Under the pieces are notes generated by a model. The model saw nothing but the letters and a program-made list of their open reading frames with translations, made no database searches and was not told the origin of the DNA. Below, in pieces: positions 1-63,744 of a DNA stretch of 64,000 bases. Both the position numbers and the translations under genes were made by a program. Every line of letters starts with the position of its first letter. Within the stretch, counting starts at the first letter, position 1. This DNA is from Mesostigma viride (lineage: Eukaryota; Streptophyta; Mesostigmatophyceae; Mesostigmatales; Mesostigmataceae), in the NCBI GenBank assembly GCA_009746045.1, contig RPFO01000002.1, forward strand, positions 187,501 to 251,500, in the 5' to 3' direction.

Positions 1-3000
1 ATATCACCAACCATCTCAGTGGAGATCTACAAAGCAGTGCCTAATTAGTGCCTATATCACCAACCATCTCAGTGGAGAGCTACAAAGCAGTGCCTAATCG
101 GTGCCTATATCACCAACCATCTCAGTGGAGATCTACAAAGCAGTGCCTAATTAGTGCACATATCACCAACCATCTCAGTGGAGATCTACAAAGCAGTGCC
201 TAATTAGTGCACATATCACCAACCATCTCAGTGGAGATCTACAAAGCAGTGCCTAATCGGTGCCTATATCACCAACCATCTCAGTGGAGATCTACAAAGC
301 AGTGCCTAATTAGTGCACATATCACCAACCATCTCAGTGGAGATCTACAAAGCAGTGCCTAATCGGTGCCTATATCACCAACCATCTCAGTGGAGATCTA
401 CAAAGCAGTGCCTAATTAGTGCACATATCACCAACCATCTCAGTGGAGATCTACAAAGCAGTGCCTAATTGGTGCCTATATCACCAACCATCTCAGTGGA
501 GATCTACAAAGCAGTGCCTAATTGGTGCCTATATCACCAACCATCTCAGTGGAGATCTACAAAGCAGTGCCTAATTAGTGCACATATCACCAACCATCTC
601 AGTGGAGATCTACAAAGCAGTGCCTAATTGGTGCCTATATCACCAACCATCTCAGTGGAGATCTACAAAGCAGTGCCTAATCGGTGCCTATATCACCAAC
701 CATCTCAGTGGAGATCTACAAAGCAGTGCCTAATCGGTGCCTATATCACCAACCATCTCAGTGGAGATCTACAAAGCAGTGCCTAATTAGTGCACATATC
801 ACCAACCATCTCAGTGGAGATCTACAAAGCAGTGCCTAATTGGTGCCTATATCACCAACCATCTCAGTGGAGATCTACAAAGCAGTGCCTAATTGGTGCC
901 TATATCACCAACCATCTCAGTGGAGATCTACAAAGCAGTGCCTAATCGGTGCCTATATCACCAACCATCTCAGTGGAGATCTACAAAGCAGTGCCTAATT
1001 AGTGCACATATCACCCACCATCTCAGTGGAGATCTACAAAGCAGTGCCTAATTAGTGCCTATATCACCAACCATCTCAGTGGAGATCTACAAAGCAGTGC
1101 CTAATTAGTGCACATATCACCAACCATCTCAGTGGAGATCTACAAAGCAGTGCCTAATTGGTGCCTATATCACCAACCATCTCAGTGGAGATCTACAAAG
1201 CAGTGCCTAATTAGTGCACATATCACCAACCATCTCAGTGGAGATCTACAAAGCAGTGCCTAATTGGTGCCTATATCACCAACCATCTCAGTGGAGATCT
1301 ACAAAGCAGTGCCTAATTAGTGCACATATCACCAACCATCTCAGTGGAGATCTACAAAGCAGTGCCTAATTGGTGCCTATATCACCAACCATCTCAGTGG
1401 AGATCTACAAAGCAGTGCCTAATCGGTGCCTATATCACCAACCATCTCAGTGGAGATCTACAAAGCAGTGCCTAATTGGTGCCTATATCACCCACCATCT
1501 CAGTGGAGATCTACAAAGCAGTGCCTAATTGGTGCCTATATCACCAACCATCTCGGTGGAGATCTACAAAGCAGTGCCTAATTAGTGCACATATCACCAA
1601 CCATCTCAGTGGAGATCTACAAAGCAGTGCCTAATTAGTGCACATATCACCAACCATCTCAGTGGAGATCTACAAAGCAGTGCCTAATTGGTGCCTATAT
1701 CACCAACCATCTCAGTGGAGATCTACAAAGCAGTGCCTAATTGGTGCCTATATCACCAACCATCTCAGTGGAGATCTACAAAGCAGTGCCTAATTAGTGC
1801 CTATATCACCAACCATCTCAGTGGAGATCTACAAAGCAGTGCCTAATCGGTGCCTATATCACCAACCATCTCAGTGGAGATCTACAAAGCAGTGCCTAAT
1901 TAGTGCCTATATCACCAACCATCTCGGTGGAGATCTACAAAGCAGTGCCTAATTAGTGCACATATCACCAACCATCTCAGTGGAGATCTACAAAGCAGTG
2001 CCTAATTAGTGCACATATCACCAACCATCTCAGTGGAGATCTACAAAGCAGTGCCTAATTGGTGCCTATATCACCAACCATCTCAGTGGAGATCTACAAA
2101 GCAGTGCCTAATCGGTGCCTATATCACCAACCATCTCAGTGGAGATCTACAAAGCAGTGCCTAATTAGTGCACATATCACCAACCATCTCAGTGGAGATC
2201 TACAAAGCAGTGCCTAATCGGTGCCTATATCACCCACCATCTCAGTGGAGATCTACAAAGCAGTGCCTAATTAGTGCCTATATCACCAACCATCTCAGTG
2301 GAGATCTACAAAGCAGTGCCTAATTGGTGCCTATATCACCCACCATCTCAGTGGAGATCTACAAAGCAGTGCCTAATTGGTGCCTATATCACCAACCATC
2401 TCAGTGGAGATCTACAAAGCAGTGCCTAATTGGTGCACATATCACCAACCATCTCAGTGGAGATCTACAAAGCAGTGCCTAATTAGTGCACATATCACCA
2501 ACCATCTCAGTGGAGATCTACAAAGCAGTGCCTAATTAGTGCACATATCACCAACCATCTCAGTGGAGATCTACAAAGCAGTGCCTAATTAGTGCCTATA
2601 TCACCAACCATCTCAGTGGAGATCTACAAAGCAGTGCCTAATCGGTGCCTATATCACCAACCATCTCAGTGGAGATCTACAAAGCAGTGCCTAATTGGTG
2701 CCTATATCACCAACCATCTCAGTGGAGATCTACAAAGCAGTGCCTAATTGGTGCCTATATCACCAACCATCTCAGTGGAGATCTACAAAGCAGTGCCTAA
2801 TTGGTGCACATATCACCAACCATCTCAGTGGAGATCTACAAAGCAGTGCCTAATCGGTGCCTATATCACCAACCATCTCAGTGGAGATCTACAAAGCAGT
2901 GCCTAATCGGTGCCTATATCACCAACCATCTCAGTGGAGATCTACAAAGCAGTGCCTAATTAGTGCCTATATCACCAACCATCTCAGTGGAGATCTACAA

Positions 3001-3191
3001 AGCAGTGCCTAATTGGTGCCTATATCACCAACCATCTCAGTGGAGATCTACAAAGCAGTGCCTAATTAGTGCACATATCACCAACCATCTCAGTGGAGAT
3101 CTACAAAGCAGTGCCTAATTAGTGCCTATATCACCAACCATCTCAGTGGAGATCTACAAAGCAGTGCCTAATTAGTGCCTATATCACCCAC
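1..3191. repeat. 53-bp intronic satellite (about 60 copies) abutting an ABCC donor site
   Basis: An uninterrupted head-to-tail array of a 53-bp unit (start ATATCACCAACCATCTCAGT) runs from the window edge to the donor of exon 3192-3269. Units differ mainly in one short stretch (TTAGTGCAC, TTAGTGCCT, TTGGTGCCT, TCGGTGCCT). On the minus strand each unit reads CACTGAGATG-GTTGGTGAT, matching the exon end and donor CACCGAGATG|GTGGGTGAT. Each unit therefore holds a copy of the exon end and 5' splice site. The array is intronic and continues beyond the window. Confidence 0.97.
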
Positions 3192-29938
<26,747 letters not shown>

Positions 29939-31627
29939 CTGCCAGGACCGGCGTAAATTATGCGAATATACAGGCTCGATTAGTGATCAGGTTCAGAACT
30001 TCAGAGGTCGACTGTGCGCAGCGATGTTCGCAATAACACTAGCAGTGCTTGCGGGCTAACACGTGATCGTGTGCATCACACTCTGCCTAGGTGTTCATGT
30101 CCCCTAGGTTTGTGTCTGATTACAGGGCCCAAGGTGGCCATTAAAATCACAAAAAGAGAAGAATGGACAAAAGAAGACATGCGTTCATATAAGGCTCGCA
30201 AAATGCGCGCACCCTTTGGCACTTCTTCACGAAGCCAATGGAGTACATTGATAGACGTTTGCTCCATCGGCTGCTCGAACAAGCCGGCTCCAGACGTAAT
30301 CGAATTCATGAGTTAAAATTTCAAGGATCCATTTTGTACCCCAATATTGCACCCCTATATTACACGCGAAGTCTGCACCATGGAACCCACAACTCGTTGC
30401 CTTACTAAACGGTTCGAAGCAGCGAATTGATCGATTCTCAAACCAGCAATGTAGAAAATCGTTTCAGGTTATGTGGCATGTCTGGTATACTGAAAAATGT
30501 GATGTGACATTAATATTATTTGCCCCTGCGTCTGGAGCTCTCTGCCTACGTTTGCCACTAACATTTCCTTTCGCCATCAGGCAGTGGGAAAACTGTCATA
30601 AGGTTCGCACTTCGCCATCAGCAAATAAGGACGTCACTATGTAGCAGCATTTGCTGGTTGTATAAACCAATGATCCGGCGCCAGCTATAAGGGATACAAC
30701 ATGCGCCTGCCTCTAGTTCGTCCCAGCCGTTCCGGCTACAATGAAACCGGTTCGCAAATAACTGGTTCATTGCTGTTCATTATTTGTAAGCCTGAACGGC
30801 TGGGACGAACTAGAGGCAGGCGCATGTTGTTGTATCCGTCATAAATTGCGGCATGGAAGTTTGAAGCGTGGCCTCCTCGGGGCGTGTACGGGCCCGTGCG
30901 CCGCGCCCCACCTCAACGCCTGTGACCACGTGGCAAGGGACAGCGGAACCAAGCCACGTATACAGTATGTATACACGGGGTGCAGTCGCGGCCTTGGGCT
31001 CCCGGCGCGGGGCGGGGTACCGGGTGCCAGCAGTTGTTACAGTATTGCAGTATGTACTGTAGCCGGCCCAAATTTCCGGCCCGTAGGTCCGACCCCCTGT
31101 GAAGGGCCTCCCGGTGCCGTCTGTACTCTGTACAGTAGCCACTAGCCCACTACAGTACTCACTACCTACTGTACTGTAGCCACTCCCACAGACCCACAGT
31201 ATGCTTCCGACAGAACCTTGGGGTAACAGATCTGCGCAAGGCGCAGTGCGCACCCGGCACCACGTACAGTATTGCGCACCATTGTTCCCGTCAAGTCCAA
31301 AACGCGCGCGTTCGAATTTCTTGTCTTGTTTGATGAACTGCGCAGTTTTAATTTTTATTGAGCAAGAGCTCCTTGCGATAGCCTGGTATCAGTGGTATGG
31401 CGACGGCATTCCCCATATGTGCTATTAATTTAGATTAGGTCAACGATTGCCGTGGGGTTTTCACGGGAATGTCCCTTCTATAAAGCCTTCTATCTCAGAA
31501 TTACGCTACTATGCTTGGTTGGTATAGATCACGTGGCGTCAGGTTAGCGCAACGGGTTTTGAGATTATACCTTCTGATGACTGAGAGCTAGGCACATCCT
31601 TGACACCGATACAGACGAGCTGTGTCC
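29939..31627. promoter_or_regulatory. intergenic region between divergent ABCC and CCDC15-like genes
   Basis: About 1.7 kb separates the first recognised ABCC exon (minus) from the ATG of the coiled-coil gene (plus), so both promoters should lie here. The missing ABCC 5' exon may also lie here; a 77-residue minus ORF at 30076-30309 is a weak candidate. A stretch at 31035-31195 repeats TACTGTA/TACAGT words. No TATA box or known operator can be asserted. Confidence 0.5.
30693..30836. repeat. inverted repeat with 40-bp arms (fold-back element)
   Basis: The left arm 30693-30732 (GATACAACATGCGCCTGCCT...) is matched by its reverse complement at 30794-30836. All 40 bases pair, with one 3-nt insertion (TTG) in the right arm. 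The loop is about 60 nt. It could be a MITE or a solo fold-back; no clear target duplication is visible. Confidence 0.93.
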
Positions 31628-34600
31628 ATGGCAGCAGCATATAGAACCCCTCCTCCAATCACGCTATGGAAGCCGGTTCCCCCTTACGCGGACCAACCCC
31701 ACTCCATACAATACGAATGCAACATTCCCGTATCTAACATTAAAGCCGTCGTGGAGAAAAATCCCCAAGTAAGCCTGCCAAATTCGTTAACTCCAGTTCT
31801 GAGCGGGGAAGTCCAGCCACTTTTTCCATCATACCCGCCCGTGTCAGTCAATTAACAAGCATGTTAACGGTCACCGTTTCGTCCTTGTCTCGTGTTCGTA
31901 CAGTTGGTCCGCCCAGGTTGCGGTTGCGTGGAAGATGGCGAAGAAGAAAATCTCGCCGAGTCTACAGCCGCAGTGAGTATAGGTCTCCGAGCCTACGCAG
32001 TATAATGTCTTTTGGTATATCTCGTTCTATGTAAGCCACGCCTAACGTCGCTACATTTATACATAGATAGGATATGCTTGATAGCTCCGTCAGCACTTTG
32101 TATTTACGGCCTGCCCTTTCTCTCTTTGCTTTTGCGCGGGGGCTTCTAATTTGCAGGTTTACGCCTGCTGGCAACAAGAGCAAGCTTTCCTGCGAAAGCA
32201 GACCAAATCACACCAAGCAAGAGCTTTCAATGAAAAGCTTAAGCAGCGTGTTTTCGAGAGAGAGACTGCCCGGCGGATCGCGCAGCAAACAATTGCCAGC
32301 TCGGATGCCCAAGCGGAGCGGAACATGGCAAGTATTTATGCTACTATGAGATTATACTATTGCAGAAGTAACCTTTCAGTGTAAACACATTGGCCAAGTG
32401 AAGTAATCCTTGATGAGTTTGTCATGACTTTGTATGAATGAGTGGGATCGCAGTTGCCAGTGATTGCCATGCCTGCATTCTGCGCTACTGCTTCAATGGC
32501 TAATGCATGTTTCTTATGACCCTAATTGCAGACACCATGGATGCAATCCGATGTGTTGTGTTTGTCCTGATGGCCATGGTTGACATTGCCCTGCAAAGTC
32601 GCCCCTCGCCCCCACCCCACCCCCACCCTGCCCCCAACACCACAGGAGGACAAGATCAACCGTGGGATTAGTTCCTGGAACCAGAAGGTGAGCTTGTCCT
32701 GCACCGCAAGGGATCCTGCCCATAGTAACTATCCCAATATTATGTTCAACATAGACATCTTTGTCATATATAAAATGACTATAGGGTAAATATATCAGTC
32801 TATATACTATTGCTCTTTATCTACATAATAGCTATATCCAGTGCCATAAGCAACATCATCAAGACTATTTATGAGGAGTCCCACCTGGAAAGGCTTACTT
32901 GCCCAGGTCGAGGCTGAAGGCAGCAGCCTGGCGTGAGCACCGGCCCCGTGCTGACTAGAGAAGCGGGGTTCAACCCATCCGCAACCAGGGTTTTCCCCCG
33001 TGAAGCCTGGCATTTGCCTTGGGTTCGCCTGTGTCGGCACATTCTACATAAGCCAGAAATAGAACTGTCCCACCAACCCGATCAGTCAAGGGACCGCCCT
33101 CACAAAGCCTACGATATTCATGACCGCCTGCCCGCAGTGTGCTCTCAGTGTGTCCACGCCTTCGTAAAACTAGCAATGGTTGCCACTGTAGGCATGTTCA
33201 TGCGCGGCAACGGCAAGCGTGGCTCGTAAGCAAAGGCCACAGTGGTGTACTTGAGCACTTGGCTGCAGGCCATGGCCTGGCATGGTGCTGTGCCTTAACG
33301 GCCCCCATCCCCAAGCCAGCTGTCTCCACGTTGTCTATCTATATAATGCCATCTCATGGTCTCACTGTCCATTCCCCTGTTTTTCTGGTTAGTAGCTCCC
33401 CCTTCACAGGCTAAATGCGCCTCCCCTGTCTGCTAACTGTCCCTGGAGTTCTGGCACGTCCAACTGATTCCCATCCCAGCACGGGCGCCTGGTGAACGCA
33501 TCCAAGATCTTGGAAGCATCGCCGCCCATGGGACCCAGGCCAAGCGGGGACACGGGCGCATCGCCACCGCTGCAGGCCAGGGATGACAACCAAATGGACA
33601 CCGGGCCCGACCAAGCGGCACGTGGCAGCGGCAGCAGCTTTGCCAGTAGCAACCGGCCAGGCAGCTCGCCTGCCGGGGGGACGTTGCAGGGCGGTGATAG
33701 AAGTAGCAAGACCAAGCCGCCGCCGCCACGGTTCCAGACGGTGCTCCCGCCCGGGCAGTGCTTTGACCGGACCAAGAGTCGGGGCATCGCGCTGCAGGTG
33801 TGTGGGGATGGGTGTGACTTGCCCCCCAGCCAGTCGCCGATTTGCGTTGTTCATACTCATTATCGCATCCATTCACTTGGTTCCTGATCTGTTCGTTCGT
33901 TCATTCGTTGGACCATCTGTCCATCCATCCATGCACCCACCCACCATGCCTCCCACCCCCACCCACCACACACACATAACCCCATTCAACACTGCCAACT
34001 AATCAAGTCAATCGTTCAATTAGTTTTTTGCACCGGCATGCTGCTGCCCTGCTGTCCGCCAGACAGGCGAAGCTCATCCGCGCCATGAGAGGCGCATGCT
34101 TTACCGTTTATCTTACAATGTAATCCATTAATTGCGACCACGCTGGTAGGCTGCTGTCCCCCACCCCCACACAGGTGAAGCGTGTGTGTGCGGTAGGGAT
34201 GTGGCAAAATGATGCAAGCTGTTACTACTATGTCCGTATGTATGCTGCGCTGCCCCTGTGTCCGCGCCACAAGCTCGCGTTGTGTCTATTAGAAAAACAA
34301 CTAGAACACCAAAGCTTTTTGCATTTTTTATAATGACATGGTAACATATTTAATTATAATGCTAACATTTTTCCTATGTATGCTGCCACAGTGATCTTGT
34401 GTCGGTGCCACCGATGAAGCGCGTCCTTTCATTGCAACGTGCAGTCATGGCTATCCATCAACAAGTCATTATGGTACGGCCCGTCCTCCTGCATCCTCCA
34501 CGCAGGTGAAGCGCGTGCGTGTCGTGCGCAGCAAGGAGATGCAGCTGGAGCGCGAGCGGGTGGACGCCTGGTGCGCGCGCCAGAAAGAGAACAACACCGG

Positions 34601-37600
34601 CCCGCGGTGCGTCCACCCATGCCCATGACCTTGGTGCCCATGCCCATGCCTATGCCGATGGTGCTATCCGAGCTCCCCACAATCACATGCCCAGTTGCAT
34701 GTGATCTTAGCTTTCCACCTGTATTCCCCCTTGCCCCCCTTCCTTATTCTACTATCTATTCCCCTTTACTATATTATTCTACTATCTATTCCCCTCCCTG
34801 GTGAATGCCTAGAAACACCACCGTAGTTTAGTTTGGTTCCGCTGTAAGTGGCGTCGTGCGCATGTGCTGGCTAGTAGCGTGCAGATGCGCATGAGGCCAC
34901 TTAGCATCCAGGCCTAAGAAGCTTTGGAAAGGCCATGGCCATGGCTGGACGAGGCATCGGGTTAGCCCTTGACAGCAACGACGATGAGGGGCATGATTGC
35001 CACATGATCCCTTCATAACAGATATCGCCACAGCTTTTCAACTGGTTGAGATCCGTCGCTCCCGGGGGTCACCCTGCAAGTGTGTGGTTTTCAAGGGTAG
35101 TGGAATACACGGCAGCTCATAGGGCGCAAGGGACAGGCAGGGCCTGTTAGTTTTGAACTGCCGGTGTAAGGGGTTGCGCATCTTCCCTGTCATCACATGC
35201 TTCTCTGAAACATTTCTTGCTCTGTAACCCTTTTCCTGGGGCATGTTTGCTAGGATCCCTCCCCTTCGCCATCGAGCACTCCTAACATTCCCTGGCCCTG
35301 TGAACCCATTTCTTTGTGCACGAGTGTACTAAACTCTCTGCGCTTCGCTTCCCTGGACCCATCCTTGACCGTCACAACCAGGCCGACCAAGGAGAAGAAG
35401 GGCGAGGCGCGGGAGGTGGCCTCGTGGCCCGAGCTGGTGGCCCTGAACGAGAGGAACCCACGCCTCGCCGAGATCCAGGCCGCAAAGGCACGAGCGGAGG
35501 CCGAGGTGGAGGCAAGGGTAGGTATTTTTAACTTTTTGGTCTTGCCACGGTTGATGCTGGGACTGTACAGATTGTGGGTGGGTGCCTCTTGCTTGACCGA
35601 GCATGTTTATCTCAACAACCTGTATGGACCATCCGACCTACCGGTCTATGTATGGACCATCCGACCTACCGGTCTACGTATGGACCATCCGACCTACCGG
35701 TCTACGTATGGATCATCCGACCTACCGGTCTACGTATGGACCATCCGACCTACCCGGTCTGCTTATGGGCCGTCCGGCCTACCGGTCTATGAGAGCATAT
35801 ATATTCAGAAGTCTTGTGTTTGAATTCAGCATTTTTCTTTGTTTGAAATGTACATCAATACGTCGGTATGGATGTGTGGCATGCCCGGCACCGATGCCTG
35901 TAGCGATTGCCCTCATTTGTCTGTAGTGGTTGAAGTTGCATGCAATAGCGTCCCGACTGCTGGGTCTTGGTTGTGTTTGAAGTGGTTATGATGGCAATGT
36001 GTTATTCACTATAACCAGTTGGTAGCACAACTTTGCAAGGCAAGCCCCTTCTGGACTTGTTGCAATCTCCAGGCTAGCCCAGTGGGAAGTATATGATATA
36101 TTGTCCACTGTGGGCACCTGGCAATCATTGTAGTGGCCCTATGGCCTGCAATATCCTGTCCCGCAACCGATATTGTTTTCCTTTTCCGCATAGGTACTAA
36201 GTCACATGTGAATGTCTTTCTGGCTTCTGCCTCGCTGTTCCATCGTCATCGGCTACAAGTCACCTCCATCCGCCATCATCTCACATCTTAAAATTTATCC
36301 CTGTGCCCTTGCCCGCTTGCTGCCATGTGCACGTGTCACAGCGCGCGGAGGAAGCGGCCAGGGCAGAAGCGACCAAGCAGGCATACCGCATGATGGAAAA
36401 GTCGCGGTAGGTACAGCCCTCGTTGTCAACGCACATGTCAGCTCATTTGTCAGCTATACTAGGTACAGCCCTCATCGTCAATATTGCTAGTATGTGCAAC
36501 CTCTTGATCCATAATTCTGGCAGGCACATCTCTCATCCTCACTTAAGCTCATTTCAGTTCGACACCTGCTCCAGCTTGGGAGCCATCTAACCCATATGAT
36601 GGGGGTAGCTCTCGTCATGCTCACGAGTACAAATATTTTTTCTTCCTTTATTTTCCTCAAGCAGCAGCACCGACTGCACCGTGCCACCGGTAGGCCATTG
36701 GTGGTGCCTCAGGGTGGTATTTGGTAAGTATACATCCTGAGATTTGTGTATGCTAAATTATACATAAACGACCTGACACATCGCTAGCGTGATAGGAAAA
36801 ACAAATACAGCCATTCACGCCTTAAGTTGGGTTGGCTTAAGTTGTGTTCACACCTTAAGTTGGGTCGCTTAGGAGTTAGGCATTCTAAGTTCAAAGTAGT
36901 TCATATTAGTATGTTTTCGTATCTTTAGTTCAAATTAGTACAATCTAGTAGAGCCATTCGCGCCTTAAGTTGGGCTCACGCCTTAGTTAAGTTGGGTTGA
37001 CCCCTCAAAAACCTTGAACCCAACTTAAGGCGTGAATGACTGTACTTGTAATTTCAAAAGCTAATACCTGGCGTTCACGTGTGACCCACTGCCAAACTGA
37101 AAGTAGGCATTGTGACTTGGCTGCATCATAGTGGTATCTCTTTGCTTGTGTGCCCCCCTGGATGGCTCCTCTGTCATGGCCTCATGTCGCATTCGCTAGC
37201 TATGGAGGCTTCCTGGGGTCGAAGAGCATCCCTTATTGTTTGTCTGACAGTCAGACTGATGTAAGAGAATGCTGACGTACCTGACCTTTTCAGATTAAAT
37301 CGGATTCGGATGTCCTTTCGATACTGTATTGTTGTGCAACCACTTCCCTGAATTTTTTTCTACATGGTACACTTGCAACGCCACCTTGCACATGCGCTGC
37401 CAACCTGCACAGCCTTGCTGCCTCAAAACATTCTGCTGCGTCTAAAAACAATGCCGGTTGCCTGCGCAGCTTTGCACAGGCTAGTTACTACTTGCACTGG
37501 CGACATAAAACCATGTAACTGGCTTCCATATGTTTTCCAGTGGGTTTGTCTGCTCTGCGCTGCTTATTCCAACTCTGCGCATTTGGTCTCAACACATATT

Positions 37601-37828
37601 GTACCCCTCAGGTACAATGAAGCGCTGCAAAGGCGACTTCTCAGCCGCATCCACGAACTGAGCATAACGTTGCCCCCGTTGTGCGGCTGCGGGCATGGCA
37701 TCAGCCCCCTGAACGAGGACTACCAGCGCTACTGCGCTAACAACTGCCCACTACGTACAGACGACGATGCCTTTGCTACCGCTTTGTCTTGCGTACTCCA
37801 CGCATACGGAGTGGTGCCTCCCCCCTAG
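31628..37828 (+). CDS. CCDC15-like coiled-coil protein, nine exons
   Basis: Exons: 31628-31768, 31904-31972, 32157-32327, 32646-32687, 33480-33797, 34506-34606, 35382-35517, 36342-36406 and 37612-37828. All phases agree, giving 1260 nt (419 residues and a stop). The N-terminus is PPPITLWKPVPPY. Residues about 71-127 are a charged helix (FNEKLKQRVFERETARR). The middle, from exon five, is Ser/Gly/Pro-rich and disordered. Residues about 260-350 form a long Glu/Arg/Ala coiled coil. The C-terminus has LPPLCGCG and CANNC followed by AFATALSCVL, an arrangement I recall from the C-terminus of CCDC15, a centriole/cilium-associated protein. The start is the first ATG in frame, in context GTCCATGG. Intron three is GC-AG (ATG|GCAAGT); a GT alternative four bases downstream would give a stop. 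Identification by memory only. Confidence 0.85.
32688..33479. other. intron of the CCDC15-like gene
   Basis: About 790 bp. A decayed candidate exon at 32910-32935 does not fit the phases. Nothing else is recognised. Confidence 0.5.
33798..34505. other. intron with an acceptor-like echo
   Basis: The real acceptor of exon 34506-34606 (CACGCAG|GTGAAGCGCGTGCG) has a relative at about 34166-34190 (CACACAG|GTGAAGCGTGTGTG). A second fragment ATGAAGCGCGT occurs near 34411. Confidence 0.6.
34607..34680 (+). repeat. short repeats at the donor of exon 34506-34606
   Basis: Just after the donor GTGCGTCCACCCATGCCCAT, the motif GTGCCCATGCCCATG and CCTATGCCGATGGTGC recur, apparently copies of the first intron bases. 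Confidence 0.55.
35620..35795 (+). repeat. 28-bp intronic array (about 6 copies)
   Basis: Units of 28 bp (TGGACCATCCGACCTACCGG core) begin about 100 bp after the donor of exon 35382-35517. The unit does not resemble that donor. Confidence 0.93.
36401..36630 (+). repeat. donor-side duplications at exon 36342-36406
   Basis: The donor region CG|GTAGGTACAGCCCTCGTTGTCAA recurs at 36460 as TAGGTACAGCCCTCATCGTC, then more weakly near 36519 (GGCACATCTCTCATCCTCAC) and 36601 (GGTAGCTCTCGTCATGCTCA). This is the same pattern as in the ABCC gene, in a gene on the other strand. Confidence 0.8.
36806..37044. mobile_element. Tc1/mariner-type MITE with TA target duplication
   Basis: Terminal inverted repeats of about 27 bp, CAGCCATTCACGCCTTAAGT at the left and the complement of CAGTCATTCACGCCTTAAGT at the right, are flanked by TA on both sides (36806-36807 and 37043-37044). 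The 235-bp interior repeats the TTAAGTTGGGTT word and has no coding capacity. It sits in the last intron of the CCDC15-like gene. Confidence 0.88.
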
Positions 37829-38639: not shown

Positions 38640-40220
38640 CAGGACCTGTCCCGAGCATCCTGTAAACCGTGCCGTTGAGCCTCAGTGGCTGCCAGTGTGG
38701 GTGTGAGTGTCCACGCCTCGGCGCCATACGTGAGCACCGTGAGGATGAGGACCTTGAAGAGCATGCGCTTGCGGTGCTCGCCCAGGCCCTTGGAGCGCCA
38801 GTAGGTTTTCAGCGAACGATGCCGAGCCCAGGCCAGGCCGATGCGGGTGTCCACATCGGCGGCGGTGTCAGGGAGCCAGCTCCCCGGCCAACAGTTTGAA
38901 GCGATCGCGGAACGGGACCTCCGTCCCGTCAAGCAGGCGCGGCAGAGGCGGTGCGAGTGGAGGCCCCAATCACCATCGCCTCAGTTTTGACACTAGAATC
39001 TCCAACCCCACCGCTCGCGCCTCCAGGCCGAGACAGTCCAGCCAGGTCTGAATGTGCTCGGGGCTCGCGATGAGGGTGGTGTCATCCGCATAAATCAGGT
39101 CGGCCAGGCGGTAACCAGGTTTAACCCCGCCGTGCTCTTTCTCGTTAAGGATGTCCAAGCCTGGCTCAAACCCCTTAAGATCAGTAAAGCGCGCACGTGC
39201 CCGGCGCATCAGTGAGGTGATCCACGACAATAATGAACAGGTATGGGGACAGGACACAACCTAATTGCCACACCCCGTGGTGAAGGTGGAATGGTGGGGT
39301 GGTGCCTTCCGTGCAGTCCGCACTACAGCCTGTGAGCCCTCATACAGTCGACGAATGGCAGCAAGAAACGCTGGTGGTACCCAATCCAGAGCTAGGATGG
39401 CCCAAAGAGCCTGAGTCCCAGAGGACCGTGTAAAAGGCCTTGATATAGTCAACAAAAATGAAGACCATGCAGCGGCAAACTGTCAGGGCAAAGGCGACGC
39501 ACCTCCTCCATCAACCGGCGTGCGCGACAAACACAGCCATGACAGTGTTACGACCACGACGGAAGCCCATATCTGAGACTCACCCAGGTGTGGGTCCAGC
39601 GCGGCGCGGAGCCTGTGCAGCATCATCATGCGCATGAAGACCTTCAGCGCGGCGCTCTGGAGGCAGACACCCCGGTAGTTACCGGGGTCAGCAGCAGAGC
39701 CCTTCTTGTACAGCATGACGCGGATGGCCGTCTGCCACCCAGCAGGCGGAGGCTCGTCAGAGAGCAGGACACGGTTGCAGAACGCCAGCAGAAGATCCCT
39801 AACCGGCGCCGGATCAGGGGTCTCCAGCAGCTCAGCAGAAAGGTGTTCGGCACCGACGTCGACCGCCGTGCGCATCGTACCGCAGCTAGGCGAGCAAGGG
39901 CGCCGTCCAATTCCTTCAAAGTGAAGGGGTCCAGACGACGTCGTTGGTGGCAAGGCAGCCCTCCTGCAAGGCGGGGACAAGTGGTAGTCCGCGGCCGAGG
40001 AGGGGGGCGCTGGCGGCGGCCGGGGGTCCGGCAACCCCGAGGCGGGCGGCCGTCTCGGGGTGAAGCGTCGGGGGGGGGCCGCGAGCCCCACCGGTCAAGG
40101 AAACATTGTGGGCCAACCAGCGGTCCGAGGCTGACCGGCGCCGTGCCGTCCCCCGTGCTCCACCGGGGTGCGCTGCCGCCGCCCGCCGGCCGCCGAGCCG
40201 GTCGAGGTGGTACCACATGT
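38640..40220 (-). pseudogene. LINE reverse transcriptase, broken into several frames
   Basis: On the minus strand, pieces in different frames read in order: VMLYKKGSAADPGNYRGVCL (39483-40091, the RT block before the palm), a palm piece at 39261-39455, LADLIYADDTTLIAS (38970-39257) carrying the YADD catalytic motif, and KVLILTVLTYGAEAWTL (38639-38932), the usual segment after the RT domain. Frameshifts between pieces make it non-functional. Catalytic YADD is intact locally. Confidence 0.88.
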
Positions 40221-40499
40221 CCTCAGTTGCCCTGCATGTTTGCGAGCTTGGCAGGCCTTGGCATCTGCGATGCACTGGGCCGCCTCCGCGTCCTGAATGT
40301 TGTATGCACATCCTTCTTATTCCGCTTTGAAAGAAATTTTTCTGTTATGGGATATATTACATAGGAATAGTTGCATGTCAGTATGGGACATCGATGCAGT
40401 ACGTCAGGTGATGGGAGAAGATGCACACATAGTCACGGATGTATAAGTAAGTACTTGCGTGTCATGCGCATGGGCATGCCACGGATCGAGTACTAATAA

Positions 40500-41115
40500 A
40501 AAATTAATATAACATGACTCCGCGTTGGGAAATCATGTAGCACATATTCCCTTACACGCAAACTGGCAGCTCGGCTCGACGGCACAGTTTACAGGATGCT
40601 CCGGCAGGTCCTTAACGTAGGTTTTTCCGAGCGTCCGTCATCAGAGTCTTTGTATCATGGCATGCCTCGTGTTTCGGACGAGATTTAGCATTTGTAGGAC
40701 ACCTTGCCCGCACCAGCCAGGTCGACACCACCCTTGGTCTGGCCGGCCCCCATGCAGCGGCTTGGACAGCCAGGGCGGCATATTCTGACCTGGCCTGGCC
40801 CCGCGGACATTCCCAAAAGGGTAGGGAAACCTGTCACCAACTACGTTCAGGTGTTGCTGGACGACCTAGTGGTCCCAGCCCAGTTTGAGCACCGCATCCA
40901 CTCTCTCTCGATCCCGTCTTTGGACTGCCATGCAGGACAAGACGCGGTGGAAGAAGATTGTCAAGGCGCACACGCCCGACCCTGTGGGCAAGCCACCTCC
41001 CCCCAAGCGGAGGAGGCGTTTTGATGAGTAGTGTAGTTAGGCTTTTCTAGATAGAGTTAGGATAGTTCGATCACGCGGCTCCCTCCACCCCATTGAATTG
41101 AATTGAATTGAATTG
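40500..41115 (+). mobile_element. LINE 3' fragment with (TTGAA)n tail
   Basis: A plus-strand, 5'-truncated copy from about 40560. It carries the post-RT segment, the ORF2 C-terminus (ending MQDKTRWKKIVKAHTP ... KRRRRFDE and a stop at about 41028) and a tail of TTGAA repeats at 41090-41113. Positions 40500-40555 are a separate minus-oriented 3' end (ATATAACATGACTCCGCGTT). Confidence 0.8.
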
Positions 41116-42030
41116 TAATGTATAACTCCGTTGGGAGTATATGTAGCACATAGCCCTTGAGAGGGGGCATATGGCCTATCATACATCCTAAGCTACTTCC
41201 TGCAAGGGTGGGGATGTAAAGGACCCTTGCTCTAGGTGCACCAGGGCACGTGCATCCCCATGATCTTCAAGCTATGCCCAGCGAAGGGGGAGCCTGTCAT
41301 GGGGGGGAAGATCAGCATAGCTATACAAAAAGCTAGGGCATGGCGTCTCAGCAGAGAGTTACTCCCTGCATGGGCACAACATAACTAAATAAAGAGCTCT
41401 AGGCATCATCTGGAGTGTGGCTCATCATAGGCACACATGTACATGATTAAATAAAGCGCGTGGCTTAGCTGGGATAGGGCCTCTAGGAGGCGTACATGTA
41501 CATGGCCACGGTCTATCTATTCTACACTACTGCTGTATTCCCCTAAGCTGGGGCGCCTGGAGTCGCTGGGGCCGCGGGGGTCGCCTGCCAGGGCTTGTGG
41601 CCGACGTAGATGGCCGCCCCCTTCCAGTACACCGGCTGCCCCGCCTTGGTCTGCCGGAGCTGGAGGTAGGTCGGCCATAGCTCCCGTCGCCGTTGTTGCT
41701 GCGCCAGGGTCAGGTCGTCATCAAGGGTGAAGAGAGTCTTCGCGAGCCGCTTGCGGCGTCTAAGAAAAGAAATCTTGTCCGCCGGGGTCTTAAAGGTGAG
41801 AAGGAGCGGGGGCGGCCCTGCCTTACCCCGCGCGCGGGGAAGGCGGTGGGCGGCCAGCTCGATCTCACCAGTAAGGCCCATGCGATCAAGGATTTCTCTC
41901 TCAAAAGCACGCGCAAGCTTCTCGGAATTCTCACCTTCCTCCATCTTGAGATTCTTGACAATGACGTTAAGGCTGCGCTTGCATGGCGAGCTCGATCGGC
42001 CTCCTCGCGGAGGTCAAGCGTCTGCCGCTC
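41113..42030 (-). mobile_element. 5'-truncated ORF1-type LINE element
   Basis: The 3' end at the left shows the family hairpin CTCCCAACGGAG (minus strand). The C-terminal half of the ORF1 protein follows at 41543-41990 and is nearly identical to the intact copy at 54750-55859 (TLFTLDDDLTLAQQQRRREL). The 5' part is missing. A plus-oriented LINE tail begins at about 42035 (to 42105). Confidence 0.82.
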
Positions 42031-54324: not shown

Positions 54325-56310
54325 GCCAGCCACGAGCCACGAGCCACGAGGTAGCCATGGCTGTCGGAGCTCATAACTTTCACGTTTGAGCGCCGAATTC
54401 AGCTGTGAATATCACAATCGCTTCGTCTTTCTAAGACGCACATGCTGATATAATTTTCCGACGCTATTACGCAATATACGATGAGCAAACGCCTCTCGAC
54501 GCAACGCAGCCTGGCGGCTGCGCTCGGCAATGAAAATACGCCTGCAGCTTCGGCTGCAGCTTCGCCCACCGGCCCAGATGGCAACGGTGACACTAGTAGT
54601 GCACTGGTGCTCGCCCAGCCAGTCCCGGGCTCGCCTCGCCATCAGCATCGCCTGAACCTAAGCGCAGTCGCTCTGCTGAGCCGCCCTGGGAAGAGCGCTC
54701 CTTTGACGTCAACAGCCCCGGCTTCTGGCAACGCAGCCCCACTTGGATTATGGAAGACTTTTATTACGGCAATTACGCCTCGCTTCTAGCCATGTGCGTG
54801 TACCTCACGACCCACAACCGTGGCCGCTGGCCTGGTGGCGGCGAGCTTGTCGACCCCGCCGAGGCTCTCCCAATCATTCACCGCATGCCTCGCCCCAAGC
54901 TTCAACGCTTCGCCCTCTGCTCCCTTGTTGGACGCTCCGAATCCGAGATCTGGGCTCCCAAACCGCCCCCCTTCCCCTCCGAAGCCTCCATCCGCACCCT
55001 CCTCAAGGAAGCTTTCGAGCAGCACGTGACCCCTCTTGCCGCAGATGTGGCGGCACTTGGCGGCACGCTGGCTGCTGAGCTCCCCACCATCCCCACCGCC
55101 ACCGCCACCCTCCTCGCCTCCACCCCCCCCCCCTCCGTCTCCACCGACTCCATCACCGCCCAGCTCCGCGACATCGACCAGCGCCTCAAGGATAATGCAA
55201 TCGCTATCGAGGTCTTGCAGAACACAGCAGGCCTCACCGCCCAGGCAGTGAAGGACATTGCCGCCAAGCCAGCCCCGGCTGGCCTGGCCGGCGATGCTCC
55301 TCCCATCACGACCTGGGCGGACATGCTTAAGCAACATACCACCTCCACCACCTCCGCCGTCGCAGCCCAGCTCCAGCGGCAGACGCTTGACCTCCGCGAG
55401 GAGGCCGAGCTCGCCAAGCGCAGCCTCAACGTCATTGTCAAGAATCTCAAGATGGAGGAAGGTGAGAATTCCGAGAAGCTTGCGCGTGCTTTTGAGAGAG
55501 AAATCCTTGATCGCATGGGCCTTACTGGTGAGATCGAGCTGGCCGCCCACCGCCTTCCCCGCGCGCGGGGTAAGGCCGGGCCGCCCCCGCTCCTTCTCAC
55601 CTTTAAGACCCCGGCGGACAAGATTTCTTTTCTCAGACGCCGCAAGCGGCTCGAGAAGACTCTCTTCACCCTTGACGACGACTTGACCCTGGCACAGCAA
55701 CAACGACGACGGGAGCTATGGCCGACCTACCTCCAGCTCCGGCAGACCAAGGCGGGCCAGCCGGTGTACTGGAAGGGGGCGGCCATCTACGTCGGCCACA
55801 AGCCCTGGCCAGCGACCCCCTCGACCACCGCGGCCCCAGCGACTCCAGCCCCAGCCTAGGGGAATACAGCAGCAGTAGTGTAGAATAGTTAGACAGTGGC
55901 CTTGTACATGCCCGCCTACTACAGGCACTATACCAGCTGAGGCCTAGCCTTTTTAGTCATGTACATGTGTGCCTATGATGTGCCACACTCCAGACGATGC
56001 CTAGCCTTATTTAGTAATGTTGTGCCCATGCAGGGAGTCACTCTCTGCTGAGAAGCCATGCCATAGCTCTTGTATAGCCATGATGATCTTCCCCCTCACA
56101 GGCATGCTCCCCCCTTACCCGGGCATAGCGTGATAGACCATGAGGGTGCGGGTGCCCTGGTGCACCTAGAGCAAGTGTTGTTTACATTCCCACCCTTGCA
56201 GGAAGTAGCTTAGAATGTATTATAGGCTCATATGCCCCTTCTCAGGGCTATGTGCTAAATATACTCCCAACGGAGTTATGTTCCTAATTAATTAATTAAT
56301 TAATTAAGGG
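54325..56310 (+). mobile_element. ORF1-only LINE element, near complete
   Basis: About 2 kb. It has a 5' UTR with three ACGAGCC direct repeats (54336-54352), an ORF1 start at 54481, the main ORF at 54750-55859, a 3' UTR, the CTCCCAACGGAG hairpin at 56263 and a tail of AATT repeats at 56285-56308. No reverse transcriptase or endonuclease is present between the ends, and truncated copies share the same structure, so this looks like a half-LINE parasitising an autonomous LINE. Confidence 0.82.
54750..55859 (+). CDS. LINE ORF1-type RNA-binding protein
   Basis: 369 residues. Residues 1-75 start MEDFYYGNYASLLAMCVYL. Residues about 75-220 are Pro/Ala-rich with TAQLRDIDQRL and TAQAVKDIAAKP heptad-like helices. 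Then QTLDLREEAELAKRSLNVIV leads into an RRM-like core, followed by ILDRMGLTGEIELAAHRLPR and PPPLLLTFKTPADKISFLRR, the order seen in L1 ORF1 (Transposase_22-type) proteins, which act as nucleic-acid chaperones in the RNP. Reading continues upstream of this Met in the same frame (WEERSFDV). The family start at 54481 is in another frame because of a one-base deletion near 54630 relative to the copy at 57930. No CCHC knuckle was seen. Confidence 0.75.
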   Translation: MEDFYYGNYASLLAMCVYLTTHNRGRWPGGGELVDPAEALPIIHRMPRPKLQRFALCSLVGRSESEIWAPKPPPFPSEASIRTLLKEAFEQHVTPLAADVAALGGTLAAELPTIPTATATLLASTPPPSVSTDSITAQLRDIDQRLKDNAIAIEVLQNTAGLTAQAVKDIAAKPAPAGLAGDAPPITTWADMLKQHTTSTTSAVAAQLQRQTLDLREEAELAKRSLNVIVKNLKMEEGENSEKLARAFEREILDRMGLTGEIELAAHRLPRARGKAGPPPLLLTFKTPADKISFLRRRKRLEKTLFTLDDDLTLAQQQRRRELWPTYLQLRQTKAGQPVYWKGAAIYVGHKPWPATPSTTAAPATPAPA

Positions 56311-58322: not shown

Positions 58323-61300
58323 CGTCGTCTGTCCCAACTCAGTCCTCACAGGAGGACTGAGTTGACAATTTTCAACCGCGTGTAGCGACTAGGTGGGGGG
58401 TCCATCCCAAATGTTTTGATGTGGATCGGGGGTGTACTAGATGTCATTTTGTTGGCAAAAATACTGCAGATGTGAAAACTTGACGCGAACACCTGAAAAT
58501 TACACGGTCGTTGGGCACCCCCTCGCGAATTTGCATTTTTCGGGATAAGAACGAGTGGGAAAAATTCAATCAAATCCTGGTGCATGAAGAAAAAATATAG
58601 GCATGTAAACAATATAGTTCTTTATCAATAGAAAAAAACTGGGCTCGATTTGGCCACTGCAACTGCCTGAAACAATTTAAAAACTCTCAGTCCTCAGCCG
58701 TGGACAAGGGCTTGCTGGCACTATGCCAGCATGCTATACCATTATTCCAATGTCCATATTATGCCATGTAGCCATTTAAATGACCCATGCTCACACAAAA
58801 AACATCTACAAACCTGCAGGGCTCAATAAAACATGCTAGGAGGGCCTTGCAAGTCGCTTACGGAGCTGAAAAACGTCTACATGCTAGCATGCTAGCACCT
58901 AGTTTTCATTATCCCAAGCACCTAGTGCTGATAATGATAACCTGCATATATAAACAATATTAGGCAAATTCAGCGCCTGCTTGGCCCTGCAGCTGTCTGG
59001 GCGCGGGTGGCCCTCTTGGCCGCCCACTTCCTGCCAGCCTCGCTGCGCTCGGTGAGGGGCACCATGGCCCTCTGCTTGCCCTTCAAGGCGTTCAAGCCGG
59101 GGATCTTGCCTGGCGGGGCATGCCAGGCAGCGAAGCACTCGCGGTGCAGGGCCACGTTGCATTCTGGGCACCAGAAGTCAGTGCGAGGAAGGCGAGGCTC
59201 CCCAGGCTTGGGCTTGGGCTTGGTGGCAGTGCACACCTCACACTGTGCCTGCATGCGTTCCTCGCCCTTGAATGGGATGCGCTCGATGGTGGTGTGTGTG
59301 CCGGAGTGCCGCCCACCACGTCCGGGCATCACAGCCACGCCCACGCTGTCGATGGGCAGTGCGGCACCATCCCACTTGTTGTGCATCAGCTTGGTGGCCA
59401 GCTTCAGGTGGAAGTCCATGTGAGACATGGCCTCATCCGGGCCACCCGCCAGCAGGGTGTGGATGTTGTGCGCCTGGCTGACCGTCTCGGACAGCATGCC
59501 AAAGAATGGCCGGTGGAACCACATCTGCGTGGGCAGCACAGACTGCACATTGTATTCGGCGCAATGCATGTCCTTGATGTCGACGGCCTTGTACATGGAC
59601 CAGTACAGCACCACGTGGTATGGAGCCGGCACTTGCACGCGGTCAGCCGTGCGACCTCCGTGGCGCGACACCATGACCTGCTTGATGGGGACGCCGCTGC
59701 CACACAGCCACACAAGCTGGCGGTCCTGCCACCCGACCACGCTGACCCCGGTCTCCTCGTTGTACGCCCAGCACCACCAGCCCTGCGCCGGCTTCCTCGG
59801 CACCAAGGCCTTCAGCTCAGCCCACGGGATGCCCTTCCGGTTGGTCATGATCGTCCCCACGCTGTCATGCCCCTTGGCAGCAAGGCGGACAGCGTTCTCC
59901 ACGCCCGTGTAGTAGCGGTCGGTGGCCACGGTGCAGCCCTCCCGTGGAAGCGTGTCGCTGAGGCGCTGCGTGACCGCGGTGACATGGCCCACTTCTGGCA
60001 GCTTGTCGTATGTCTCGGCGTGCCAAATGTACCCGAGGTGGATGTCGCAGAGGCAGTATTTCCGGATGTGGAACTTGTTTGGCTTGTCCTTGCAGTAGCA
60101 ACGGACTGGACACATCTGGTGGCGCGTCTCAATTGACCGCTCGTCCAGGGCCATGTGCCCCGAGGGGACGAAATACTTCTTATACTGGCCATTAAGGAAG
60201 CGCTCCAGCCAGTCGAGTTGCCACAGACGGTGCTCACGAGTGCGGGGGTCTGCAGGCCTCTGGGTGCTGTCGCGGAAATGGAGGAACCGGGTAATCTGCT
60301 GAAACCGTTTCAATGTCATGTACCGGTTGAGGCGAGCTCCACCAAGGATGCCCAGGTCTGCCTCTTGGAAATAAAGAGGTACAGAGGGCAGCTTGCACAC
60401 GCCCATGGTAAGCACGATGGCCAAGTACTTCCCAAACTCATGCACAGTGAGGTGGTCCCATGTTCTTCCCCCCTCATCCTCCTCATCCTTCTTGCTGGCA
60501 GCATAGCGATTGATCTCGGCGACGATGGGCGCCAGAGTGTCCTGGATTACCATGAACAGGGTCCATATGTCCAGCAGCTTCCATGCACCAATCCTGGTGG
60601 GGATGTTCTTGGTAGAAGCCGGCGTTGTAATACCTTGCGGGTTGATTGCCGGCCCCTTGCCTGCTGCCGGCTCCCCTACGCCCCATCGCCAGCCATCCTG
60701 TGTCACAGGCTCAGCCTCCTCGTCGCTGCCCTCATCATGTGGGCGAACACGCACATCCGCTGCCTCCAGCTCATCCTCGTCATCAGACTCGACGAGATCA
60801 GGCACCTCGTCGGGGTCAGCGCCTGCTGGCATGGAATCACGTCGCTTCCGGGTGCGTTTGGGCTTGGAAGCAGCCCCGGAAGGTTTAGGAGGTCGCCCTC
60901 GCCCGCGGCCAGTGGCACCGCGCCCGCCACGCCCTCGCTTTGGGACGAAATCGCCATCATCGCCATCAGACGCGGGGTCGTCGTCATCGCCCTCATCTGG
61001 CCCCACCTCCGGATCTGGCATGGGTTCGTCATCTGACGACGGGGGGGGGGGGCTGTCGGCATTCCCCGAGGTTGGGGAAATCCCTCCCGACGTTTCCTCG
61101 CCGGCAGCGTGGTCCAGAATGTACTGTCTTGAAAAATCATACTGCGTTTCATCATCAAATAAGACTGTAAACTGCGCTCCCCGGGACTTTTTGCCCGTGA
61201 CCTTGCCACACAACACCGCGCTTGCAAAATTAGCACCGTAATTCGACTTTGCCCAATTTATTCCGAACTCTGTCGCCTTTACTTTCACTTTAAACCCTAT

Positions 61301-61645
61301 ATCTATGCGTATTTCTGGGCCTACTCCACTGCCGGTCTCCGCCATCGCTGACCGTGCATCGTCGTCGTCAGTCGCAGTCGTCCCTTTTTGGTACCGTTTT
61401 TCGCCCAAAATTTTTTAGGGTACCCTAGTTACCCCCCTACAGATGAGGGTCAAAACAAAATCCAAAAAAATCGCAAAAATATGTCCCAGAAACATCTTTT
61501 CACGTAGTATTTGAATAAATTTAGAGAGAATTTTTTTGACAAATATTCCGACCAGGGCGAATTTTCTACAAACCTCAAAAACTCGGTCCTCGGTAGAGGA
61601 CTGAGATCGACTCAGTCCTCCGCTGAGGACCAGAGACAGACGACG
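58323..61645 (-). mobile_element. piggyBac-type DNA transposon, about 3.3 kb
   Basis: The ends carry imperfect terminal inverted repeats: CGTCGTCTGTC at 58323-58333 and its complement at 61635-61645. Inside these sit AGTCCTC...GAGGACT palindromes at both ends (58337-58364 and 61585-61630). A TTAA, the piggyBac target, lies just outside the right end (61648-61651) but not at the left. The element splits an ORF1-type LINE copy. Confidence 0.75.
58970..61408 (-). CDS. piggyBac-family transposase, intact, 812 residues
   Basis: Cut-and-paste DDE/D transposase (DDE_Tnp_1_7 type). Residues 1-240 hold a chromo-like start (FTVLFDDETQYDF), an acidic stretch (120-150), an AT-hook-like GRGRGRPPKP (167-176) and a basic patch (KPKRTRKRR). 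The catalytic core begins near 265. The three expected acidic residues are visible: D422 in MALDERS, D497 in VATDRYY and D610 in MYKAVD. The C-terminal Cys-rich domain has C723, C726, C747, C750, H755, C758 and H763 (CEVC, CPEC, HREC), used by piggyBac for end binding. No frameshift or stop occurs. Start chosen at the first Met; an internal Met at residue 22 (MAETGSG) is an alternative. Confidence 0.95.
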   Translation of the reverse strand: MGEKRYQKGTTATDDDDARSAMAETGSGVGPEIRIDIGFKVKVKATEFGINWAKSNYGANFASAVLCGKVTGKKSRGAQFTVLFDDETQYDFSRQYILDHAAGEETSGGISPTSGNADSPPPPSSDDEPMPDPEVGPDEGDDDDPASDGDDGDFVPKRGRGGRGATGRGRGRPPKPSGAASKPKRTRKRRDSMPAGADPDEVPDLVESDDEDELEAADVRVRPHDEGSDEEAEPVTQDGWRWGVGEPAAGKGPAINPQGITTPASTKNIPTRIGAWKLLDIWTLFMVIQDTLAPIVAEINRYAASKKDEEDEGGRTWDHLTVHEFGKYLAIVLTMGVCKLPSVPLYFQEADLGILGGARLNRYMTLKRFQQITRFLHFRDSTQRPADPRTREHRLWQLDWLERFLNGQYKKYFVPSGHMALDERSIETRHQMCPVRCYCKDKPNKFHIRKYCLCDIHLGYIWHAETYDKLPEVGHVTAVTQRLSDTLPREGCTVATDRYYTGVENAVRLAAKGHDSVGTIMTNRKGIPWAELKALVPRKPAQGWWCWAYNEETGVSVVGWQDRQLVWLCGSGVPIKQVMVSRHGGRTADRVQVPAPYHVVLYWSMYKAVDIKDMHCAEYNVQSVLPTQMWFHRPFFGMLSETVSQAHNIHTLLAGGPDEAMSHMDFHLKLATKLMHNKWDGAALPIDSVGVAVMPGRGGRHSGTHTTIERIPFKGEERMQAQCEVCTATKPKPKPGEPRLPRTDFWCPECNVALHRECFAAWHAPPGKIPGLNALKGKQRAMVPLTERSEAGRKWAAKRATRAQTAAGPSRR

Positions 61646-63336: not shown

Positions 63337-63744
63337 ATGGCGGCTTCCGTGTCTCAGATGATCCAGGCCAGGTAGGCTTATGAATCGCTTTTTCATTGGG
63401 AGATTAGCGTTTCCAAAATTTTCCCGGTCAGAAATGGATTTTGGTAGACTTTTGCATGGCGCGAGACCGATGGCATTTGCTACGATCCTGGATCCAGTAC
63501 CCGTGGATAGAGGCTATTATTGGGAAACACGATGCAGTCTTCATTATAACTTCCAGCTCAAGTGCCACATTTTTCTTCGTTGCCCGCATGTTCCTCATGT
63601 CCGCAGCACCTTCCTCGGAAGCAAGGTGGCCTCAGTCGCCCGCGCCACCCCCGCCAAGGCCCAGGCTAAGTTCGTCGTCTCGGCCTCTTCTAACCGCCCA
63701 GTGTGGTTCCCCGGCAATGCCCCCCGGGCATGGCTGGACGGCAG
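63337..63744 (+). CDS. light-harvesting chlorophyll a/b-binding protein, first two exons
   Basis: Exon 63337-63371 (MAASVSQMIQA plus two bases) joins in phase to exon 63607-63744 (TFLGSKVASV ... AQAKFVVSASSNRPVWFPG, then NAPRAWLDG). Introns are GTAGGC...CGCAG and GTGAGC onward. RPVWFPG-x-x-P-x-AWLDG is the conserved N-terminus of mature Lhc proteins, most like photosystem I Lhca. The preceding 30-odd residues (Ala/Ser/Lys/Arg-rich, VVSASS before the mature part) are a chloroplast transit peptide. The protein inserts into thylakoid membranes and binds chlorophyll; the three transmembrane helices lie beyond the window. Confidence 0.9.

Follow-up and report, generated by a model that had tools for sequence, protein, structure and literature searches.

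The window that we analysed is a stretch of 64,000 nucleotides, positions 187,501-251,500 of scaffold C1591 in a 439.9-Mb assembly of the Mesostigma viride genome. For the published genome, the sections of the report used here give a size of 441.8 Mb, a mean intron length of 1,142 bp and repetitive sequence in 30% of intron space (PMC6947507). The left part of the window holds an ABCC-type ABC transporter gene (3192..29938, minus strand), for which we modelled by hand 24 exons within the window. Joined together, these exons give 969 codons in a stop-free frame, and the best PDB match to their product is ABC transporter C family member 13 (E 3.7e-172). The gene runs on to the left of the window, where further ABCC exons lie; its 5' end was not found. 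The exons within the window are as follows.

29938-29700, 28754-28456, 27298-27066, 26169-26082, 25469-25331 and 24075-24010, minus strand: ABCC exons 1-6
23075-23013, 22175-22095, 21320-21225, 20635-20574, 20156-20057 and 17198-17106, minus strand: ABCC exons 7-12
16629-16475, 15679-15571, 14319-14260, 13648-13522, 10975-10891 and 9976-9705, minus strand: ABCC exons 13-18
9281-9226, 8318-8268, 7434-7323, 6699-6542, 5876-5790 and 3269-3192, minus strand: ABCC exons 19-24

A second gene, on the plus strand (31628..37828), has 9 exons that encode 419 residues in a full frame; its third intron has a GC donor (ATG/GCAAGT, 32328-32333), and a Pfam search with its protein gave no match. Pfam searches with seven protein pieces named only a transposase, a chlorophyll-binding exon and a weak HAD-hydrolase match. 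The transposase is an 814-codon piggyBac-type frame (58970-61414, minus strand; Pfam DDE_Tnp_1_7), reported as 100% identical over 84% of the query to the Mesostigma viride EukProt entry jgi/Mesvir1/23441, with two single-residue differences on reading. At the right end, the predicted plus-strand exon 63607-63744 directly precedes a chlorophyll a/b-binding-protein exon beyond the window (Pfam Chloroa_b-bind), and the two probably belong to one gene. Retroelement-like coding fragments were recognised by eye at 38700-41900 and 54600-55860 (reverse-transcriptase-like and ORF1-like); two such frames had no Pfam match, and peptides resembling these fragments are predicted again on the scaffold flank. 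Just upstream of the ABCC exons lies a MITE-like inverted repeat (30696-30830) with 42-nt arms that are 98% complementary and 51 nt apart. Two identical predicted coding segments, probably a transposon, lie about 138 kb apart on the scaffold (C1591:8204-9301 and 146728-147825). Long open ABC ATPase frames also occur on scaffolds C2011, C602, C802 and C2103, the last three of which match equally; our guess is that these three may be plastid DNA and that C2011 may be a bacterial contaminant.

Simple repeats are found at two places in ABCC intron 11. At 17492-18549 lies an interstitial telomeric array of about 1 kb, in which telomere-type TTTAGGG repeats (17779-18549) are accompanied by degenerate blocks of GGGTGGA and GGGCTCA. 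In the same intron, 34 bp past the exon 11 donor, GGGT/GGGC tetranucleotide repeats extend for 566 bp (19457-20022) and are G-rich on the transcript strand.

Other repeats in this gene are related to its own exons. Using Tandem Repeats Finder (TRF) on frame-checked exons to call arrays, and local self-alignment to find copies, we detected copies of the exon end in seven ABCC introns (after exons 2, 3, 10, 13, 18, 23 and 24), six of which include the donor. Exons 19 and 22 are each followed by a further array that begins at intron base +2.

1..3205, minus strand: donor-spanning array of exon 24 (donor 3192), 53-bp unit, 60.5 copies, 14 exon nt per unit
3912..5800, minus strand: donor-spanning array of exon 23 (donor 5790), 51-bp unit, 37 copies, 11 exon nt per unit
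6335..6540, minus strand: array from intron base +2 after exon 22 (donor 6542), 22-bp unit, 9.4 copies, without exon bases
9030..9224, minus strand: array from intron base +2 after exon 19 (donor 9226), 33-bp unit, 5.9 copies, without exon bases
9458..9711, minus strand: donor-spanning array of exon 18, the Walker A exon (donor 9705), 42-bp unit, 6 copies, 7 exon nt per unit
16307..16333, minus strand: copy of the exon 13 end, exon positions -30 to -3, without the donor
20492..20605, minus strand: donor-spanning duplication of exon 10 (donor 20574), 59-bp unit, 1.9 copies, 32 exon nt
26982..27020, minus strand: copy of the exon 3 end and donor, 31 exon nt
28278..28344, minus strand: diverged copy of the exon 2 end and donor, 58 exon nt

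An earlier, sequence-only reading of this DNA had described junction arrays at about half of the ABCC donors, and most of these are borne out, with some misplaced or overcounted. TRF recovered the four donor-spanning arrays at 3192, 5790, 9705 and 20574 with the copy numbers listed above, and the arrays at 6542 and 9226, reported as copies of mainly the first intron bases, contain no exon bases. At donor 28456, for which four copies had been counted, the last 50-58 exon nt recur as three diverged copies, with a fragment in addition (besides the copy listed, exon 2 end copies lie near 28018-28075 and 27819-27881), and at donor 27066 the same count reduces to a single clear copy and a 13-nt fragment at the threshold used. 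The two copies at donor 14260 agree with a copied intron-start sequence (score 34) and with two copies by eye; of about three copies at donor 22095 only a weak match is left (score 26). The array placed at a junction near 13500 (11973-13417) is not a junction array, as the true donor is at 13521/13522 and the array begins 104 bp into the intron. The copy of the exon 13 end had been overlooked.

Because exons 10, 18 (Walker A) and 23 end in conserved coding sequence, copying at these junctions went from exon into intron; the end of exon 23 is ambiguous by 3 nt between two weak donors. Exons 2 and 3 have poorly conserved ends, from which the direction cannot be read. The two longest arrays also record how they grew. 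In the 53-bp array, two differences from the exon end are common to 58 of 60 copies, the donor reads GTTGGT in place of GTGGGT in 56 of 60, and GT is present in all 60; therefore one diverged founder copy was amplified into the array. The array may be longer than seen, because a run of 2,500 N (C1591:185001-187500) adjoins it directly left of the window. In the 51-bp array the exon bases are exact in 32 of 36 copies and GT is present in 26 of 36, and multi-unit blocks recur within it (3912-5800). Array growth of this kind fits unequal exchange or block slippage within the intron.

Copies are also found on the acceptor side, in the ABCC gene and in the second gene, at the following positions.

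29046..29067, minus strand: copy of the intron 1 acceptor end and exon 2 start, found with a 30-nt query
27531..27580, minus strand: copy of the exon 3 start in the upstream intron
5950..5991, minus strand: acceptor-spanning copy upstream of exon 23
3380..3415, minus strand: weaker acceptor-spanning copy upstream of exon 24, seen only with the intron end in the query
34164..34190, plus strand: acceptor-spanning copy upstream of exon 6 of the second gene

A second copy of the exon 3 start, with its acceptor, lies near 27443-27478, and the exon 24 start alone scores 15 against the upstream intron. The sequence-only reading had held that the arrays are always seeded at the donor side; it had missed these copies, and that part of its description is not borne out.

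We sampled junctions elsewhere with an exon finder built from the codon use and splice-site profiles of both window genes; on these two genes, which are its training set, it recovers exactly 23 of 24 ABCC exons and 4 of 9 second-gene exons. The independent test comprised 96 donors outside the window, 48 from the same-scaffold flank and 48 from loci collected by a kinesin search. The flank introns form five groups: one covers the second half of the ABCC gene, and the others come from four further genes, of which one looks P-type-ATPase-like by eye; the kinesin-search set covers eight loci on seven other scaffolds. The last (or first) 30 exon nt served as the query against the adjoining intron, with a main threshold of score 24. 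In the flank, we left out by hand before scoring a low-complexity exon call (152770-153130), calls under score 17 and transposon-like ORFs. Kinesin-search exons were hand-picked from the predicted list before scoring, leaving out L032 4302-4358 (itself an exon-end copy), L036 2404-2507, most L031 calls and others. Eight of the 48 donors in this set have no downstream exon in the locus, and up to 1,500 bp of the following sequence was used for them; the acceptors of L035 exon 7151-7404 and L036 exon 3737-3880 were left unscored. One neighbouring pair of predicted exons is mutually similar (F1, score 26).

Exon edges matched their own introns far more often than the introns of other exons in all three sets.

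Window, score 22: exon ends in 7/32 donors (non-cognate 24/992); exon starts in 4/31 acceptors (non-cognate 14/961)
Flank, score 24: 12/48 donors (non-cognate 8/2,256; exon-internal 30-mers 3/162); 6/48 acceptors (non-cognate 12/2,256; exon-internal 30-mers 3/217)
Kinesin loci, score 24: 12/48 donors (non-cognate 3/2,256; exon-internal 0/185); 5/38 acceptors (non-cognate 3/1,786; exon-internal 2/116)

Outside the window, copies thus occur at 24/96 donors and 11/86 acceptors, and pooling with the window at score 24 gives 29/128 donors and 14/117 acceptors. The figure of 29/128 is a low count because the copies at 3192, 5790 and 9705, with at most 14 exon nt per unit, fall below score 24. Exon ends matched other introns in only 64/16,256 non-cognate comparisons, so the similarity of units to their own junctions is well above control, and the earlier view of the copies as recurrent and independent holds. 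The same control gives no support to a shared mobile element as the source of the copies. Furthermore, in the pooled set at score 24 we found no inverted matches (0/128 exon ends, 0/117 exon starts), no exon end in the upstream intron (0/110) and no exon start in the downstream intron (0/104); lowering the threshold to score 22 brings in one inverted match and one in the upstream intron. By eye, head-to-tail junction units are seen outside the window at L034.4, L036.3 and L033.2, and an acceptor repeat of about five copies at L032.5. A sense copy that adjoins its own junction and matches its own exon is what local tandem duplication leaves behind, and junction copying is widespread in the sampled genes.

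We considered whether an assembly or gene-model artefact could produce these matches, given that the independent exons come from our own predictor, partly hand-curated, and that the scaffold contains runs of N. This seems scarcely credible, as the window exons hold an open 969-codon frame and match ABCC proteins, the copies are diverged and not identical to the exons, and the controls are near zero in three separate sets.

The sequence-only reading had gone on to propose a recurrent mutational process aimed at 5' splice junctions, for instance R-loop, U1 or transcription-linked breakage followed by slippage. Several results point that way. Array edges lie at most 2 bp from donors, or enter the exon, more often than expected in the window (6 seen vs 1.12 expected, P = 0.00055, with 2,000 bp of free space assumed for the intron that the window end truncates; 6 vs 1.86, P = 0.0043, when TRF was re-run on each intron with a 5-bp limit), the window being the discovery set and its P values therefore post hoc; such arrays are absent from all 8 window donors of the second gene. 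In the independent sets copies are more frequent at donors than at acceptors, both at score 24 (P = 0.04) and at score 30 (17/96 vs 5/86, P = 0.02), exon ends exceed the intron-interior expectation in 84 independent introns (23 vs 15.0, P = 0.005), and the reach of the copies into the exon is short, as described below. Against targeting, donor pinning of arrays is absent from 93 introns outside the window, which are a sample and not the genome (6 donor array edges seen vs 5.60 expected, P = 0.49; acceptor edges 2 vs 5.10, P ≤ 0.11). Acceptors are hit too, at the 14 of 117 noted above; the intron interior is duplicated nearly as often; and arrays and copies begin at various points between exon position -58 and intron base +2, which rules out a fixed breakpoint at the junction. 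An origin at donors only is ruled out by the acceptor copies together with the unreplicated donor pinning. We therefore consider targeting of 5' splice junctions unlikely. The phenomenon first described is mostly real and wider than claimed, extending to other genes and to acceptors; its donor-specific interpretation is not supported outside the ABCC gene.

The comparison with the intron interior can be followed more closely. Under one rule for 113 introns, exon ends were copied in 28 vs 22.4 expected from the interior (P = 0.053), and in the 29 window introns among them they fell below expectation (5 vs 7.4). Exon starts, in contrast, were below expectation (13/106 seen, 19.3 expected, P ≤ 0.03), and exon bodies were nearly free of copies (1/79 and 1/76). 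The first 30 intron bases were not above the interior in the 113 introns (19, P ≤ 0.19) and were below it in the independent ones (10, P ≤ 0.05), with a frequency in the flank of 0.08 vs about 0.3 inside the intron; within the window, too, repeats are no commoner at intron starts than in the interior (9 seen, 7.1 expected, P = 0.22). Because the exon evolves slowly and its copies stay recognisable longer, exon ends should show a modest excess even if nothing targets them. At the other end of the intron, splicing tends to take the first AG past the branch point, and an upstream acceptor copy would add exon bases to the message, so the acceptor deficit fits this rule. Richness in arrays is likewise not a trait of the ABCC gene alone: arrays cover 40% of its introns, 3% of those of the second gene and 6% in the right part of the window, and the coverage of 27% in flank introns and 20% in kinesin-locus introns makes the gene rich and not unique.

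We think it probable that these copies come from frequent local tandem duplication that ignores exon borders and is filtered by splicing and purifying selection. In this scheme short DNA segments in Mesostigma genes would often duplicate locally in tandem, whatever the exon borders, and duplications within exons or harming coding sequence would be purged. A duplication crossing a donor would place an extra exon end and donor downstream of the original one; with the first donor in use, the extra copy would be spliced out and the event would be near-neutral. A duplication crossing an acceptor would place the extra copy upstream of the true acceptor and would be tolerated less often. Some founders would then expand block by block into long arrays and others would decay. 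Sense copies that match only their own exon and are partly decayed lie at both ends of introns in our samples; we infer the use of the first donor, the selective filter, the near-neutral decay and the DNA mechanism, be it slippage, unequal exchange or break repair.

Several properties of the copies bear on this reading. An in-frame stop precedes each of the donor copies tested, 102 in total in six window introns (1, 1, 1, 4, 36 and 59 per intron), so use of a copy would truncate the protein and the first donor is needed for the full protein; judged from the reading frame, the first donor is probably the one used in the mRNA. The exon part of the 29 pooled donor copies has a mean identity of 0.88 (from local alignment and so somewhat high), and the aligned GT is retained in 22 of them, in line with the earlier suggestion of lengthened introns with decoy donors. 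These stops and this divergence also bear on whether the copies are retained by selection, with decoy donors or exon-edge copies regulating splicing. The retained GT, in those 22 copies and in most or all units of the 51-bp and 53-bp arrays, speaks for such a role; the observed proportion (0.76), however, is the decay expected at this divergence (0.77, from 0.88 squared), the donor is weaker in the 56 GTTGGT copies of the 53-bp array, the tested copies lead to stops, and the copies are exon-specific with no shared motif apparent in the non-cognate comparisons. We see no sign that donor copies are either kept or removed by selection, 29 being few, and a regulatory role is quite improbable.

Local duplication also predicts that the intron side of the junction is copied, and so the 14 of 29 copies in which the intron part is above control are expected; the 15 of 29 in which it is not count against this reading. 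The repeat period has a median of 115, and most copies lie 30-220 bp from their own junction. Their reach into the exon has a median of 30 nt and a maximum of 58, a mean of 0.30 of the available length (KS P = 6e-7), and 2 of the 29 exceed half of it. This is shorter than random breakpoints predict; it counts against plain duplication and is unexplained. The donor-pinned arrays of the window weigh on the same side, as does, in the independent introns, the excess at exon ends together with the deficit in the first 30 intron bases. Either longer copies, which would carry exon-enhancer context, compete and are removed, or duplication is itself limited near junctions. The short reach is the single part of the data that could hide a new mechanism: a splicing-linked process might limit or drive exon-edge duplication, taking 15-60 exon nt, usually with the splice site, and how far it extends would depend on the splicing machinery or on exon-enhancer context. 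Splice-site duplication would then act throughout the genome as a constant source of longer introns and of latent alternative splice sites. We regard this as possible and rather doubtful.

Tandem duplication is also an established route of intron gain in the portions of the literature considered here (PMC3443670, PMC4974935), including a potato RdRp case in which a tandem duplication with splice signals creates a new intron (PMC4974935), and the Mesostigma copies might accordingly be relics of introns born by tandem duplication of exon sequence. The two resemble each other in that splice signals are duplicated. In its simple form, however, intron gain predicts a new intron whose 3' end holds the end of the upstream exon and whose 5' end holds the start of the downstream exon, and the copies adjoin their own junction instead, most of them at the short distances given above. 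As far as these descriptions go, the known cases create introns, whereas the Mesostigma introns appear to have existed already and to have been lengthened. Judging from the position of the copies inside introns, lengthening would fit better, and we consider birth by duplication highly improbable as their origin.

Among green algae, tandem repeats in Chlamydomonas and Volvox are enriched near intron ends, with a U-shaped position profile (PMC3887541); as in Mesostigma, the introns of these green-lineage species abound in tandem repeats, whose frequency depends on position relative to the intron ends, and the consulted part of that report makes no mention of exon-edge copies or duplicated splice sites. 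Introners, described in the section cited as sequence families common to many introns (PMC9860276), share with our arrays the presence of repeated intron sequence. Unlike introners, the copies here match their own exon, and sharing of that type was not seen among the exon edges, which alone were compared (64/16,256 non-cognate matches vs 29/128 cognate).

Single junction-spanning repeats are already known. Zhuo and others reportedly described in 2007 human introns derived from tandem arrays with splice sites within the arrays, and Gao and Lynch are said to have found in 2009 splice sites inside internal gene duplications. The VNTR of the human CBS gene has an effect on splicing. Described as a copy-number polymorphism of 16 to 21 copies in the cited part of one report, its 31-bp unit (c.1444_1467+7) contains the exon end and the first intron bases (PMC2630376), and an excerpt of another places it at exon 13-intron 13 (PMC1395315). 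The units at donors 3192, 5790, 9705 and 20574, and at the three loci L034.4, L036.3 and L033.2, are similarly composed of exon end, donor and first intron bases, head to tail. Unlike the CBS repeat, a single human locus, those in the one genome that we examined involve many junctions, many genes and acceptors as well. An incomplete literature search returned no report of exon-edge copies at such frequency, which leaves novelty in print uncertain, and the main text of the Mesostigma genome papers, in the portions available, is without any word beginning 'splic'. In Mesostigma, exon-edge copies, usually with the splice site, occur at about one quarter of the sampled donors and one eighth of the sampled acceptors. 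If this extends genome-wide, Mesostigma would offer a natural collection of duplicated splice sites that grade in age and in exon content. Such a collection would let one ask how the spliceosome, faced with many identical donors, settles on the first, and it would bear as well on the seemingly lower tolerance of acceptor copies and on intron growth in early-branching streptophyte algae.
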